Below, piece by piece: positions 6,804 through 36,177 of a DNA stretch of 64,000 nt. The translations under genes were made by a program, and so were the position numbers. The notes under the pieces were generated by a model, which made no database searches, was not told where the DNA came from, and saw only the letters and a list, made by a program, of their open reading frames with translations. Each line of letters begins with the position of its first letter. Position 1 is the stretch's first letter. The stretch spans positions 1-64,000 of the forward strand of contig NZ_BOOA01000048.1 of assembly GCF_016862995.1 (NCBI RefSeq), read 5' to 3'. Source of the stretch: Acrocarpospora phusangensis (GTDB lineage Bacteria > Actinomycetota > Actinomycetes > Streptosporangiales > Streptosporangiaceae).

Positions 6804-7775
6804 ATGATCAGAATCGAGGTGAGCCCGCAGGACGTCGCCGCCAGCCGGTTCGCGATCTCGCCCGTCGTGGAGACCATGCACGCGCTCTGGGTGGTGTCGG
6901 GACGGCAGCCCGCGGGGGCGTTGCGGTCGTGGGCGGAACGGGCGCGGGAGCCGTACCGGGCGCTGCTGGCGGCTGATCCGAAGTTGCGGGCGCTCCAGGC
7001 GCTGCTGCGGAGCGGCGGGTACAACGCCGACTTCGTCGCGCCCCCGCCCACGGGGGTGAACGCGCGGTTCGAGACGGAGATCGAGCGGATCAGGGCGACC
7101 CCGCTGGCCCAGGCTCACGAGGAGATCGCCAGGAATCTGGACGGCGTGGCCCGCCCGCCCCGGGCGGTGCTGGACCTGCTGGAGGGGCCGCGCGTGGTGG
7201 AGGTGCTCGCCGACGCGCTGGAGCTGGCCTGGCGCGAGATCCTGGAGCCCGACTGGCCGCGCTTCCACGCCATCCTGGAACGCGACGTGATCCAGCGCGC
7301 GGGCCGGCTGGCCACCTACGGCTGGGCGGCGGCCCTCGACGACCTCAACCCGCGGCTCGCCTGGCGGGACGGCGGCATCGAGTTCCGCAAGGGCGGCGAG
7401 AGCGAGCACGTCCGCCTCGACGGGCGCGGCCTGCTCTTCATGCCCAGCGCCTTCGCCTCCTCGGTGATCCCCTACCTGGAGGAGTCCTGGCCGTACGCGC
7501 TCGTCTACCCGGCGCGGGGCACGGCGGCGCCCGCCCCCGCCGCGAGCACCGCGGCCCTGAGCCGCCTGATCGGCCGCTCCCGGGCTCTCATCCTGCTGGA
7601 GCTGGGGGCGCCGGCCACCACCTCCCAGCTGTGCGCCAGGCTCGCGCTGAGCCTGGGCACCACCGGCGAGCACATCGCCGCGCTCCGCGCGGCCGGCCTG
7701 ATCACCGGGACCAGGACCGGCCGCACGGTCCGCTACCACCGCACGCCGCTCGGGGACGCGCTGGTCAGCCCTTGA
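6804..7775 (+). CDS. ArsR family regulator with long N-terminal (DUF5937-like) domain
   Basis: 323 residues. The ATG at 6804 was chosen because MIRIEVSPQDVAASRFAISP is the usual beginning of this family; AGGTGGG lies just upstream. The N-terminal 240 residues form an actinobacterial domain of unknown function, and the last 70 hold a winged helix (SRALILLELGAPATTSQLC...LGTTGEHIAALRAAGLI, then an RTGRTVRYHR wing). Such proteins commonly sit next to MFS pumps and repress them (family knowledge). The 3' end overlaps the convergent permease gene by 11 bases. Confidence 0.88.
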   Translation: MIRIEVSPQDVAASRFAISPVVETMHALWVVSGRQPAGALRSWAERAREPYRALLAADPKLRALQALLRSGGYNADFVAPPPTGVNARFETEIERIRATPLAQAHEEIARNLDGVARPPRAVLDLLEGPRVVEVLADALELAWREILEPDWPRFHAILERDVIQRAGRLATYGWAAALDDLNPRLAWRDGGIEFRKGGESEHVRLDGRGLLFMPSAFASSVIPYLEESWPYALVYPARGTAAPAPAASTAALSRLIGRSRALILLELGAPATTSQLCARLALSLGTTGEHIAALRAAGLITGTRTGRTVRYHRTPLGDALVSP

Positions 7776-31047: not shown

Positions 31048-31641
31048 TCATGCGGCCACGCTTTCCGACTCGCGGACGACGCCCTCCTCCCGGGCGTACC
31101 CCTCCAGCATGCCGCGCAGCTGCCGCCGGCCCCGGTGCAGCCGCGACATGACGGTCCCGATCGGCGTGCCCATCCGGTCGGCGATCTCCTTGTACGCGAA
31201 GCCCTCCACGTCGGCCAGGTAGACGGCGACCCGGAAGTCCTCCGGCAGGGAGCGGAGCGCGTTCATCACGACGTTGTCCGGCAGCGACTCCAGTGCCTCG
31301 GTCTCGGCCGACTTCAGCCCGGTGGACATGTGTGACTCGGCGGCGGCCAGCTGCCAGTCCTCGATCTCCTCGGCGGCCGACAGTTTGGGCGAGCGCTGCT
31401 TCTTGCGGTAGTCGTTGATGAAGTTGTTGGTGAGGATGCGGTGCAGCCACGCCTTCAGGTTGGTGCCCTCCCGGAACTGGTGGTAGGAGGTGAACGCCTT
31501 GGTGACCGTCTCCTGGACGAGGTCCTCCGCGTCGGCGGGGTTGCGGGTGAGACGCATGGCGGAGGCGTACAACTGGCTGGTCACGGGCACGACGTCGCGC
31601 TCGAACCAGGCCTGACGCTGCTCATCGCTCATCGAGATCAT
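31048..31641 (-). CDS. sigR: ECF sigma factor, SigR/SigH type
   Basis: 197 residues. Region 2 ([40 protein letters not shown]) and region 4 ([40 protein letters not shown]) match SigR of Streptomyces closely. It directs thiol-oxidative stress genes there. The ATG at 31641 follows GGGGGGATGAC; an ATG at 31725 would add 28 residues, reminiscent of the longer SigR' isoform in Streptomyces. The usual rsrA anti-sigma gene does not follow; the MEDS/HATPase gene is convergent instead. Confidence 0.88.
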
Positions 31642-31882
31642 GTCATCCCCCCTGGAACTCTCTCCCCCGTTACCCCTCCGGAGCGGACCCATGCGGATAT
31701 GCCGCACCGTCGTGGTCATCGTCATAGTGGCAGCTGACCCGTAAGCGGGGTGTTAGCCGGCCAGAGGGGTTCAGTCGGGAGCACCGGGAGCCTGTAGGCT
31801 TGATCACCCGCCTGGCGGACAAGTCTCATTATCATAACACTCTTGCCTCGATCCGGAAGAAAGTGTGGCGAACGGCACTCGT

Positions 31883-31888
31883 TACAGT
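31883..31888 (+). promoter_or_regulatory. -10 element for a leaderless transcript of the cysteine synthase-family gene
   Basis: TACAGT lies seven bases before the ATG at 31896, with no Shine-Dalgarno upstream. The spacing fits a transcript that starts at the ATG itself. No clear -35 is seen. Confidence 0.4.
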
Positions 31889-31895
31889 TAGCCGC

Positions 31896-32966
31896 ATGAA
31901 GCACATGGACCGGCACGATCCGGCGACGCGCACCTGGGCCGCCGAGGCCATCCGGGCCGTGGAGGCGGACTCCAACCGTAGCTGCGACACCCATCTGCAC
32001 GTCTTCCCCCTCCCCGCGCACTGGGGCGTGGACCTCTACCTGAAAGACGAGTCGGTCCACCCCACCGGTTCACTCAAACACCGCCTCGCCCGCTCCCTTT
32101 TCCTGTACGGCCTGGCCAACGGCTGGATCGGCCCGCACACCACGATCATCGAAGCCTCCAGCGGATCCACCGCGGTGAGCGAGGCGTACTTCGCCCGGCT
32201 GCTCGGCCTGCCGTTCATCGCGGTCATCCCGGCCTCCACCTCCCCGGAGAAACGCGACCTCATCGAGTTCTACGGCGGCAAGTGCCACCTGGTGGACGAC
32301 CCCGGAAAGATCTACGAAGAGTCCACCAGGCTGGCGGCCGAGACCGGCGGCCACTACATGGACCAGTTCACCTACGCCGAGCGGGCCACCGACTGGCGCG
32401 GCAACAACAACATCGCCGAGTCGATCTTCGATCAGCTGGCCCTGGAGCGGCACCCCGAGCCCGCCTGGATCGTGGTCGGCGCCGGCACCGGCGGCACCTC
32501 GGCGACGATCGGCCGCTACCTGCGCTACCGCCGCCACCAGACCCGCCTCTGCGTGGCCGACCCCGACGGCTCGGCCTTCTACCCGTCCTGGGTCTCCGGC
32601 CAGGACGGCACCGCCGGCGGCTCCCGGATCGAGGGCATCGGCCGGCCCCGGGTGGAGCCGTCCTTCCTGCCGACCGTGATCGACCGGATGACGCAGGTGC
32701 CGGACGCCGTGTCCATCGCGGCCATGCGGTGGACCCGGGAGGTCACCCACCGGGACGTGGGGGGATCCACCGGGACCAACATGGCGGCGGCCGTACAGAT
32801 CATCGGGGAGATGCGGGAGGCCGGGGAGCGCGGCAGCGTGGTGACGCTGATCTGCGACGGCGGCGAGCGTTACCGGGGAACCTACGGCAGCGACGCGTGG
32901 CTGGCGGAGAAGGGCATCGACATCGAGCCGCACCTGGCCGGGTTCAGGGCGTTCCTGGCGTCCTGA
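31896..32966 (+). CDS. PLP-dependent cysteine synthase family protein (Cds1-like)
   Basis: 356 residues. The PLP lysine is in HPTGSLKHR (Lys61), [18 protein letters not shown] binds the substrate, and [12 protein letters not shown] (about 195-206) holds the cofactor phosphate. The fold is that of O-acetylserine sulfhydrylase, but the sequence groups with the actinobacterial Cds1-type L-cysteine desulfhydrases (family knowledge, moderate confidence). It makes or breaks down cysteine. The open frame extends 96 bases upstream, but [14 protein letters not shown] is the likely start. Its end overlaps the TPR gene by 23 bases. Confidence 0.85.
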
Positions 32967-34809
32967 GGGCCTCGCGCACGTCCTTGTCGCCGGGATCCAG
33001 CTCGGCCGCCCTGACCAGGTCGGCGTGGGCCCGCTCGTCCTCCCCGACCGCGCGCAGCGCCACCGCGCGGTTGTACCGCAGCGCCGCGTCGTCGCCCAGC
33101 TCGATGGCCCGGCTGAGATCGGCCACCGCGCCGGACGCGTCGCCCAGTTCGAAGGCCAGTTCCCCCCGGCTGGCCCAGGCCGCCACCAGGCCGGGATCGT
33201 GGAACAGCGCCGCGTCGAACGCCTTGCGGGCCTCCGCGTACCGGCCGGTGGCCGCCTCCGCCTGCCCCAGCGCGCACAGCAGGTACGCGTTGCGCGGGTT
33301 CAGCGCCAGCCCCAGCCGCGCGTCCGACCTGGCCCGGTCGTACTCGCCGAGCGCCACCAGCAGCCCGGCCCGGTTGGCGTACGCGTCGACGAAGCCGGGA
33401 TCCAGCTCGATCGCGTAGTCCAGGTCGGCCAGCGCGCCCGCGTGGTCCCCTTCGGCGAACCGGATCTCCGCCCGGTTGTAGTACGCCTCCGGGAACGGCG
33501 GCCCGGCCCGCATCGCGGTCTCGTAGTCGGCGATCGCGTCCACGGCGCGGCCCAGCCGGTAGAGCAGGTTGCCCCGGTCGATGTAGTAGTCCGGGTAGCC
33601 CGGGTCGGCCTCGATCACCGCGTCCAGGTCGGCCAGGGCCGCCGCCGGATCGCCCAGCAGCACGGTCAGCTGCGCCCGGTTGGCCCGCAGCACCAGCCGG
33701 TGGATCGCGTGCTCGCCCGGTTCCAGATCGCGCTCGGCCAGCTCGATCGCCTCCTCGACCAGCCGCAGCGCCGGCCGCAGGCGGCCCAGCCTGGTCTCGA
33801 TCAGCGCCTTGCCGTTCAGGTCGAAGCCCAGGTGGAAGGCGCGCACCCGCCGGTCGGGCAGCAGCCTGGTGATCGTGACGGCCTCGTTGATCCAGGCCCT
33901 CGCCTGTTCCACGTCCCGGCGTCCGGGGTCGTGGTGGCGGGTCAGCAGCATGGCGGTGGCGTACGCGGCGGTCGCCCGGTTGACCGGGTCCGTGCTCTCC
34001 CGCCTGGCCAGGTCGAACAGGTCGCGGGCGGCGTCCTCCCGCTCGGTGGCGGCCAGCGCGCCCGCCGTACGGTGGACCAGCGCCCACCAGTCCTCGGTGT
34101 CCACCTGGGCGCGCTCCAGGGCCCGCTGCCCGGCCTCGGCCGCCGCGTGGTGGAAGCCCTCGCCGACGTACCGGCGGACCAGCTCGGGAGTGACGGACGG
34201 CCAGGCGTGCGCGGCCGGCCCGCCACCGCCGGGAACCGCCTCCACGTGCAGGGGCAGCGCGGCGGCCAGCGGCGGCTCGGCCACCGGCGTGCACACCACC
34301 ACCGTCAGCATGGCCGGGTCGATCCGGCGCAGCAGCACACCGAGCAGCTCCCGGTCGGTGTGGTCGGCCTCGTGCACGTTCTCCACGATCAGCGCGGCCG
34401 GCTCACTCCCGGCCAGCCGGTCGCGGACGAACTCGGCGATCCCGTTGGCCAGCCGGAGCGTACGGCGCGGCGCGGGCACCAGGATGCGCTCCGCCTCCGG
34501 CACCCGGTCGGCCAGGCTCCGCCGCCGGGCCCGGACGAGCTCCCGCAGTTCGGGCGCGGCGGCCCGGATCTCGATGTCGTGCGCGGCCAGCAACTCTGGC
34601 CGGGCACCGGGCACCAGCACGGCCAGCAGCGCCGCCGCCGCCGTGTAGGGCCCCGCGGAACGGTGCGCGTCGATCGGCTCGCGCAACGGGCGCGGCAGGT
34701 CACGCTCACCGTTCCAGCGGGTCCCCTGGACCCACAGATGGCGCAGCGGCCGGCTTCCCTCGCCGATGCGGACCGGAACCGCGCGACTCCGGTCCCAGGG
34801 ATCGATCAA
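32944..34809 (-). CDS. TPR-repeat protein with Walker-B-like N-terminal domain
   Basis: 621 residues from a TTG start overlapping the stop of a 24-codon ORF (TTGA). Residues 1-200 resemble part of a STAND/AAA domain: [20 protein letters not shown] reads as a Walker B, but no Walker A is visible, so ATP hydrolysis is doubtful. From about residue 230 to the end the protein is a run of TPR-type helices ([74 protein letters not shown]) with some 34-residue periodicity. No signal peptide. In Streptomyces the TPR-containing differentiation regulator nsdA lies near ftsY, so a related role is possible. Confidence 0.78.
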
Positions 34810-34880
34810 GGAAGGTGCTTGGCGCTGGCACTGCCGGTGAGCTTGACCGGGCCTGGCTTGTGAACGATGACCTTCTTCAT
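34806..34880 (-). CDS. 24-residue peptide ORF, coupled to the TPR gene
   Basis: Minus-strand ATG at 34880; translation MKKVIVHKPGPVKLTGSASA followed by KHLP. A strong SD (GGAAGG, spacing 8) precedes the ATG, and the TGA overlaps the TTG start of the TPR gene (TTGA). The peptide is basic (five Lys, two His), without a signal peptide or Cys. The coupling suggests that translation of the peptide opens the start of the TPR gene, and the peptide itself might be a ligand or modified product. TTGACA at 34917-34922 could be a -35. Confidence 0.6.
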   Translation of the reverse strand: MKKVIVHKPGPVKLTGSASAKHLP

Positions 34881-35016
34881 CAAACGAGCCTTCCAGAAGA
34901 TTTCGGGACTCGCCAATGTCAACACAACCGAGAAGGAATTAACAATAGCTTGGCCGGTAATAGACATTTCCCGATAAATGCACTTAATTAGCTATTCAGT
35001 CACCCAGAAGCTTCGG
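34881..35016. other. AT-rich gap between ftsY and the peptide ORF
   Basis: 136 bases with far more A and T than the flanking genes, including AATTAACAATAG and TAATTAGC stretches. It must hold the promoter of the peptide-TPR pair; TTGACA (minus, 34917-34922) has no clean -10 at 17-18 bases. No hairpin terminator for ftsY was found. Confidence 0.5.
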
Positions 35017-36177
35017 TCAGGCCTCACCCAGAAGCGCGTCCACGAAGACCTCGGGGTCGAAGGGGGCCAGGTCGTCGGGGCCTTCGCCGAGGCCGGCCAG
35101 CTTGACCGGAACACCGAGCTCGCGCTGGACCGAGATGACGATGCCGCCCTTCGCGGTGCCGTCCAATTTGGTGAGCGCGATACCGGTGATGTTCACCACT
35201 TCGGCGAATACCTGGGCCTGGCGCATGCCGTTCTGGCCCGTCGTCGCGTCCAGCACCAGCAGGACCTCGTCCACCTGGGCCCGCTTCTCGATCACCCGCT
35301 TCACCTTGCCCAGCTCGTCCATGAGGCCGGTCTTGGTGTGCAGGCGGCCGGCCGTGTCCACGATCACCACGTCCGCCTTGTCGGAGATGCCGCGCGAGAC
35401 CGCGTCGAACGCGACCGAGGCCGGGTCGCCGCCCTCGGGGCCGCGCACCACCGGCGCGCCCACGCGGTCGCCCCAGGTCTGCAGCTGGTCGGCGGCGGCG
35501 GCCCGGAAGGTGTCGGCCGCGCCGAGCACCACGCTCTTGCCGTCCCCGATCAGCGACCGGGCCAGCTTGCCGGTGGTGGTGGTCTTGCCGGTGCCGTTCA
35601 CGCCCACCACCAGCAGCACCGCCGGGCGCTCCCCCGGCGCCGAGGTGTGCAGGGTCCGGTCCAGGCCGGGGTTGATCTGGGTGAGCAGCTGCTCGCGCAG
35701 CAGCCCCCGCACCTCCTTCGGCGTGCGGGAGCCCAGCACCTTCACCTTCGTGCGCAGCTCCTCGACCATGGCCCGGGTGGGCGCCACGCCCACGTCCGCG
35801 GTGATCAGGGTCTCCTCGATCTCGTCCCAGACCTCGTCGTCCAGCCGGTCCCGGGAGAGCAGCTCGAGCAGGCCCTTGCCGAGCGTGGTCTGCGAACGGG
35901 CCAGCCGCGCGCGCAGCCGGACCATGCGTCCCGCCGACGGCGGGGGGACCTCGACCTCCGGCGGCTTGACCAGCTCCTCCACCGGAGGCGCGGGAGGCGC
36001 CAGGGTCGCGGTCGCCGTGCCGCCGCCCTGCTCCTCCTCCTCGCCGCCCCCGCCCGCCGGCGGGGTGTCCACCGGGGGAAGCTTCTTGGCCGACGGCCGG
36101 AACATGAAGAAAAGACCGCCGGCCGCCAGCAACGCGGCCAGGATCACGACAATGCTGATGACCAGGTAACCATCCAC
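35017..36177 (-). CDS. ftsY: Signal recognition particle receptor FtsY
   Basis: 386 residues. An N-terminal membrane segment (YLVISIVVILAALLAAGG) is followed by a Pro/Glu-rich linker and the NG domain: P-loop GVNGTGKTTTTGKLA (about 192-206), DTAGRLHTKTG, TKLDGTAKGG and the final VKLAGLGEGPDDLAPFDP. It receives ribosome-SRP complexes at the membrane. GTG start with a weak GGAAA upstream. It starts 37 bases after the end of smc, so they may be transcribed together. Confidence 0.96.
   Translation of the reverse strand: MDGYLVISIVVILAALLAAGGLFFMFRPSAKKLPPVDTPPAGGGGEEEEQGGGTATATLAPPAPPVEELVKPPEVEVPPPSAGRMVRLRARLARSQTTLGKGLLELLSRDRLDDEVWDEIEETLITADVGVAPTRAMVEELRTKVKVLGSRTPKEVRGLLREQLLTQINPGLDRTLHTSAPGERPAVLLVVGVNGTGKTTTTGKLARSLIGDGKSVVLGAADTFRAAAADQLQTWGDRVGAPVVRGPEGGDPASVAFDAVSRGISDKADVVIVDTAGRLHTKTGLMDELGKVKRVIEKRAQVDEVLLVLDATTGQNGMRQAQVFAEVVNITGIALTKLDGTAKGGIVISVQRELGVPVKLAGLGEGPDDLAPFDPEVFVDALLGEA

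Follow-up and report, generated by a model that had tools for sequence, protein, structure and literature searches.

In the RRNPP regulators of Bacillota, a peptide is encoded beside a TPR protein, most members carry an N-terminal HTH domain, and the peptide is secreted as a signal-bearing pro-peptide that is later re-imported. TPR repeats also form the superhelix of OGT, in which an asparagine ladder holds the peptide backbone. NsdA of Streptomyces, according to the preliminary description of the locus a TPR protein encoded near ftsY, offers a further point of comparison. A different kind of small peptide belongs to the RiPP cassettes with an M50 protease, such as those of the epipeptides and pearlins, whose maturation involves M50 proteases (PMC10885120). 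The pair of genes discussed here shares something with each of these systems. It lies in a stretch of 64,000 nucleotides from Acrocarpospora phusangensis (contig NZ_BOOA01000048.1), which is called the window below. Like the RRNPP systems, it pairs a small-peptide gene with the gene of a TPR protein; in contrast to them, it comes from another phylum, lacks an HTH match and an apparent signal sequence, has its peptide gene upstream of the TPR gene, and has a TPR protein with a degenerate AAA-like N-terminal part. With NsdA it would share a TPR gene near ftsY, a likeness of gene position. Its repeats are similar to those of OGT and place two conserved asparagines in the OGT register, but the window protein has no glycosyltransferase domain match and its asparagine ladder is incomplete. 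With the M50-associated RiPP cassettes it has in common a short precursor-like peptide, and a sister form of the pair has an adjacent gene that fuses an RRE-like domain to an M50-like membrane protein. The genus of the window, however, is without this RRE-M50 protein, and the constant partner of the peptide here is the TPR protein. Two other kinds of system were also compared. The FxSxx-COOH system was rejected, as none of its TPR or peptide models matched the window TPR protein, the peptide or four relatives in an NCBIfam scan reaching E 10. The PADLOC models of anti-phage defence returned only a weak PrimPol match within the TPR part (E 0.0021).

The features of the locus are collected in Table 1. 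A preliminary description had proposed a 24-codon gene with a strong Shine-Dalgarno sequence and a stop codon overlapping the first codon of a TPR protein, and this layout is as claimed: the frame opens with an ATG at 34880 and closes with a TGA at 34808-34806, which shares bases with the TTG at 34809-34807 that begins the 621-residue TPR frame. Purine-rich stretches precede the ATG at many of the homologous peptide loci (judged by eye). The same description had called the peptide basic and the gap before it unusually AT-rich. Both statements agree with the computed values: the peptide has a pI of 10.6 (from a calculation of pI and GRAVY), and the gap between ftsY and the peptide gene has a GC fraction of 0.41-0.50 in 100-base windows from 34850 to 35049, compared with mostly 0.63-0.84 elsewhere between 33000 and 38000, where the one other dip is to 0.55 at 36100. 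No signal peptide is apparent by eye on the 24-mer. A search against Pfam gave it no match at E up to 1, and NCBIfam gave none at E up to 10 for it or for four relatives. L106, the sole related record that is annotated and has a peptide of the window type, carries no annotated features across that stretch. Beyond the TPR gene, positions 31048-32966 of the window encode what appear by eye to be a cysteine synthase-like PLP enzyme and an ECF-type sigma factor, and look-alikes of one or both also occur near the pair in L064 and L106.

Table 1. Features of the peptide-TPR locus in the window (positions on the 64,000-nucleotide stretch).
Feature	Position	Strand	Basis or remark
TPR-repeat protein gene, 621 aa when read from the TTG	32944..34809	minus	ORF list; domain scans
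Alternative TPR start: Shine-Dalgarno-like GAGGGAAG before CTG (ATG in L120-L122)	34735..34761	minus	
Hairpin just past the peptide stop, 8-bp perfect stem	34770..34795	minus	stem search
24-codon peptide gene	34806..34880	minus	ORF list; upstream of 76/80 TPR homologues
Shine-Dalgarno-like GGAAGG of the peptide gene	34889..34894	minus	8 nt before the ATG
Bipartite 5' element, TTACCGG ... GTGTTGACAT	34916..34960	minus	possibly promoter or operator
ftsY, upstream neighbour of the pair	35017..36177	minus	ORF list; linked in part of the family only

The 24-codon frame is a genuine, conserved gene. The peptide lies just upstream of the TPR gene in 76 of 80 loci, a figure that holds for close relatives because these were the best 80 of 319 candidate loci. 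Among 71 distinct 24-codon sequences, K2, G10 and H22 are invariant, and the third codon position is the most variable, with a mean entropy of 1.16 against 0.68 and 0.61 for the other two. The pooled pN/pS among five Acrocarpospora, the window's included, is 0.145; over the whole peptide set it is 0.458, with synonymous sites saturated at that distance. (For the selection analysis, the 25-residue peptides of L191, L192 and L196 were omitted and the over-long L198 was trimmed to its MKK start.) The invariant residues, the variability of third positions and the low pN/pS indicate selection at the level of the protein. The suggestion that a real peptide gene belongs with the TPR gene thus came through the comparison across homologous TPR loci that had been proposed as its refutation.

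The peptide is also inherited together with one TPR family. A profile search of 200 genomes of the bacterial family found the peptide in 120 at E up to 0.1, with 92 of these below 0.001, and 95 of the 200 contain the TPR protein at E ≤ 1e-40. All 92 genomes with a peptide at E < 0.001 carry the TPR gene, and none of the 105 genomes without the TPR gene has such a peptide. The three genomes with the TPR gene only (G017, G035 and G139) encode variant peptides (MKKIQIRKAGAVRLTSTATPLYATTCIK, MKVIKIRKAGPVRLTSPACTTYHAPG and MKKIAVHKPEIKQLAGKAATAHGAP) upstream of the TPR gene or cassette, so that with variants counted all 95 TPR-bearing genomes have some peptide of this kind. The genomes are phylogenetically related rather than independent samples, so a Fisher p-value overstates the association; the search also scored a limited number of candidates per genome. 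Regardless of this inflation by kinship, two genomes argue for a joint function in trans, because G020 (TPR gene in L231, peptide in L069) and G077 (L230 and L070) have retained both genes on separate contigs. An upstream peptide is missing at four of the 80 TPR loci (L133, L174, L175 and L179), of which L133 and L179 match G077 and G020, respectively, where the peptide gene sits on another contig. Three peptides (L061, L069 and L070) have no TPR gene nearby and, like the four misses, count against the reading that we prefer below. The TPR-less peptide of L061 (8208-8282) stands in a setting that looks by eye like those of L065, L068 and L078, which do have the TPR gene. An initial set of 60 relatives yielded a TPR match in 34 at E ≤ 0.001, and many of these matches are probably to ordinary TPR proteins. 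A regular-expression scan upstream of 21 loci found the peptide in 16. No peptide was found near L009, and in L018-L021 a membrane-protein gene lies directly upstream, with wider stretches (L112, L073, L110 and L113) showing a variant peptide before it. The ftsY gene was found in 48 of the 80 fetched loci, 47 of which have the peptide, and 29 of the 76 peptide-bearing loci have no ftsY within the fetched flank, which means that the pair also sits away from ftsY.

The intervening membrane protein leads to the sister form. Among 35 neighbourhoods compared, 13 contain a gene for an M50-like membrane protein and the other 22 contain none, and all 13 have the three genes on one strand in the order peptide, M50-like protein, TPR protein. 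The peptides of these three-gene cassettes mostly begin like MKKIxVRKxGxVRLT, are longer than the 24-mer, and have variable tails, often with Cys or Tyr (for example QPLYVCYQ, NSLYAPFSCWPF and CYCYGCCCCGGRAAI); in L072 the peptide is duplicated in tandem. An HExxH motif is present in all 14 examined members of the membrane protein and its relatives. Similarity to Pfam M50 is weak: of six cassette members scanned, two matched at E 0.12 and four gave no match, and relatives outside the cassette reached E 1.1e-4 and 0.01, both under the curated cut-off. A profile of the N-terminal domain (12 rows, three of them relatives without a TPR partner of this type) was compared with solved chains and found TbiB1 (E 0.0021) and TfuB1 (E 0.23) first, both of them leader-binding proteins of lasso-peptide pathways. 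PqqD matches this domain in six of the 12 members, with a best E of 0.011. On these features the sister form resembles a RiPP-like cassette, the RRE-like domain being carried by the M50-like membrane protein. The 24-mer is related to these longer precursor-like peptides, which accompany the RRE-bearing M50-like protein and the same TPR family. In a TPR tree of 41 rows, which does not contain the variant pairs from G139 and G029, a branch with support 100/100 separates the 10 cassette rows from the 31 rows without the M50-like gene. The split gives no direction, and the membrane protein could have been lost in the window form or gained in the sister form. Cassette-type peptides occur outside the bacterial family as well, and a divergent one is encoded on a Streptomyces plasmid (L107), where its frame is the end of a 57-residue annotated hypothetical protein (7538-7711); a plasmid search with a cassette-form (type-B-like) peptide gave no match. 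The type-B cassettes of L063, L066, L074, L073 and L113 lie beside genes resembling SARP-type regulators and flavin oxidoreductases or reductases (by eye). Near relatives of the M50-like protein in L117, L118, L214 and L219 there are other short peptides of similar make (MKIEVRKVEAVKATQFMT, MIKKKTLPVRRLESVKASSPVDVCVVQPTA, MKKLIVRRLESVKTSAATSCSVVVA and MKKLVVRKLEPIKTSANADCVPAAA), and the peptide class may therefore be wider.

The TPR protein itself gives some indication of what the peptide might do. Its N-terminal part is weakly like AAA_16 (Pfam E 3.5e-4, under the cut-off), and a Walker A motif is absent from the first 250 residues in all 46 rows of two alignments taken together. No Pfam match to a glycosyltransferase domain was found, and the resemblance to human OGT is one of the repeats only. 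The repeat part is acidic (pI 4.75). Asn 332, 377, 445, 479 and 580 are each present in at least 33 of 34 relatives, and all 12 rows of an alignment spanning both forms have them. Of these, Asn 445 and 479 align with OGT asparagines, and the OGT register rests on these two. At repeat position 411 Asp predominates, at 513 Val/Ala and at 547 Ser/Asn/Gly, which leaves the ladder incomplete. The kept asparagines and the acidic repeats, set against a basic peptide, would fit a ligand or partner held in the groove. Asparagine ladders also hold ligands other than a partner peptide, which counts against the peptide as the ligand.

Taken from sequence comparison, our preferred reading, to which we assign a probability of roughly 0.5, is that the two genes form a peptide-TPR module in which the peptide, related to RiPP-like precursors, would serve the TPR protein as a ligand or small partner. 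This two-gene module probably branched off from the RiPP-like three-gene cassette. A plausible mechanism for the pair can be outlined. The peptide would stay in the cytoplasm and bind along the acidic, asparagine-lined TPR groove through its conserved VHKPG and KH parts; binding would switch or complete the TPR protein, and the degenerate AAA-like N-terminal part might then pass the signal on. The hairpin found between the genes at about half of the loci compared would allow more peptide than TPR protein to be produced, which is its simplest use. Less probably, the pair could be an intracellular two-gene signalling module of Streptosporangiaceae that arose from a domesticated RiPP leader, the peptide having been freed from the protease and the variable core to become a TPR ligand controlling a degenerate AAA-like switch protein.

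The relation to the cassette raises the question of whether the 24-mer is still a true RiPP-like precursor that an enzyme from another locus modifies or trims, with the TPR protein as scaffold or chaperone and an exported signal or antimicrobial as the product. The variable Cys/Tyr tails of the distant relatives, the tandem copy of L072 and the RRE-like, M50-like protein all speak for such a precursor, as does the maturation of epipeptides and pearlins by M50 proteases (PMC10885120). However, the tail of the window-form peptide is short and, except for its last two residues, largely conserved (H22 in 71 of 71 sequences), and the combination of conserved leader and variable core is a trait of the wider family. 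RiPP precursors are short genes beside their pathway genes; the window peptide is a short conserved gene beside a constant partner, the TPR gene, and a pathway enzyme is adjacent in the sister form only. No third gene common to the window-form pairs was seen by eye in fifteen neighbourhoods, and no radical SAM enzyme or cyclase was recognised by eye in the neighbourhoods listed, some of which are flanked by flavin enzymes. As for a leader-binding RRE or a modifying enzyme, the RRE-M50 protein was found in none of the five Acrocarpospora genomes by a search that matched 12 of 60 relatives (six at E < 1e-80), and an RRE profile, in a search without a positive control, also found nothing in these five genomes. 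We therefore consider a precursor role for the window peptide doubtful.

An unlikely alternative to the ligand reading is a peptide that stabilises the TPR protein as a permanent mini-subunit, without a regulatory role. Strict co-occurrence and conservation along the whole length are what such a subunit would show. Set against it are the multiple peptide matches in some genomes and the expression signals around the gene, namely its own 5' element and a hairpin, which would uncouple the amounts of the two products. Just past the peptide stop, 35 of 76 loci have a perfect stem of at least 8, compared with 16 of 380 control windows, which were coding windows within TPR genes rather than other intergenic regions. 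Most of these hairpins are in loci where a gap separates the two genes, and the window has one too. The 5' element (consensus TTACCRG ... GTGYTGACAT) lies upstream of the peptide gene in ftsY-linked loci. Both halves occur in order in 41 of 47 ftsY-linked loci, in one of 29 others, and in 0.26% of 760 shuffles, which keep base composition only; the motif had been derived from a subset of these loci. In most ftsY-linked loci its two blocks start 33-35 nt apart. The element is possibly a promoter or operator and matches no sigma factor site known to us. Its exact form has one copy in the window's genome and, as a test for regulon sites, was found once each in five of 21 genomes and not in the other 16, A. 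catenulata (G004) included. Between 34500 and 35300 a scan predicted neither a sigma-70 site nor a terminator, and three Rfam matches were all far under their gathering scores.

The preliminary description had pointed to the RRNPP type, which would mean quorum sensing by a secreted and re-imported peptide acting on a TPR regulator. The pairing of peptide and TPR protein is as such in line with this comparison, but a signal peptide is not apparent, and scans of the window protein return TPR families and the weak AAA_16 match with no HTH among the Pfam matches at E up to 1 or the NCBIfam matches at E up to 10. No RRNPP receptor is among the molecule names of 60 of the 77 solved chains. Quorum sensing of this type is accordingly very improbable.

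A translation-coupling leader had been suggested as well. If the frame acted in cis only, through coupling or attenuation, an overlap of the two genes would be expected to matter, and an in-frame start codon does overlap the peptide stop at 17 of 76 loci. At 58 of the 76, however, the first in-frame start lies 0-229 nt downstream of the stop (within 150 nt at 55), and in one (L148) no in-frame start codon was found after it. Conservation of the peptide with its overlap had been named as support; the peptide is conserved (76/80 loci), but the overlap is not general. Even in the window, a TPR start at the overlapping TTG is not certain. Three other Acrocarpospora (L120-L122) have a conserved Shine-Dalgarno-like GAGGGRAG ahead of an ATG 63 nt further in, where the window has CTG (34746). 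In A. catenulata (L123), no usual in-frame start other than the overlapping TTG is seen by eye before the conserved domain. The gap at most loci, the orphan and split copies, and the conservation of the amino acids contradict a role as leader only, with none for the peptide itself, and leave it hardly credible. A chance ORF, for which only the short length speaks, is ruled out for practical purposes by the upstream conservation in 76 of 80 loci, the invariant residues, the purifying selection (pN/pS 0.145) and the co-occurrence with the TPR gene.

The peptide gene and its tie to the TPR protein are real, conserved and apparently undescribed: no published account of the pair was found in the literature searched, peptide strings included, a search whose reach mostly stopped short of subscription journals. 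The finding adds a conserved and apparently unnamed gene family, one without a Pfam or NCBIfam match, and a defined bacterial peptide-TPR pair, widespread in a family with many natural products. With tails such as NSLYAPFSCWPF, the sister cassettes appear to represent a RiPP-like class that has yet to be exploited. If the peptide is indeed a ligand of the TPR protein, the pair would show a natural-product precursor turning into an internal signal.
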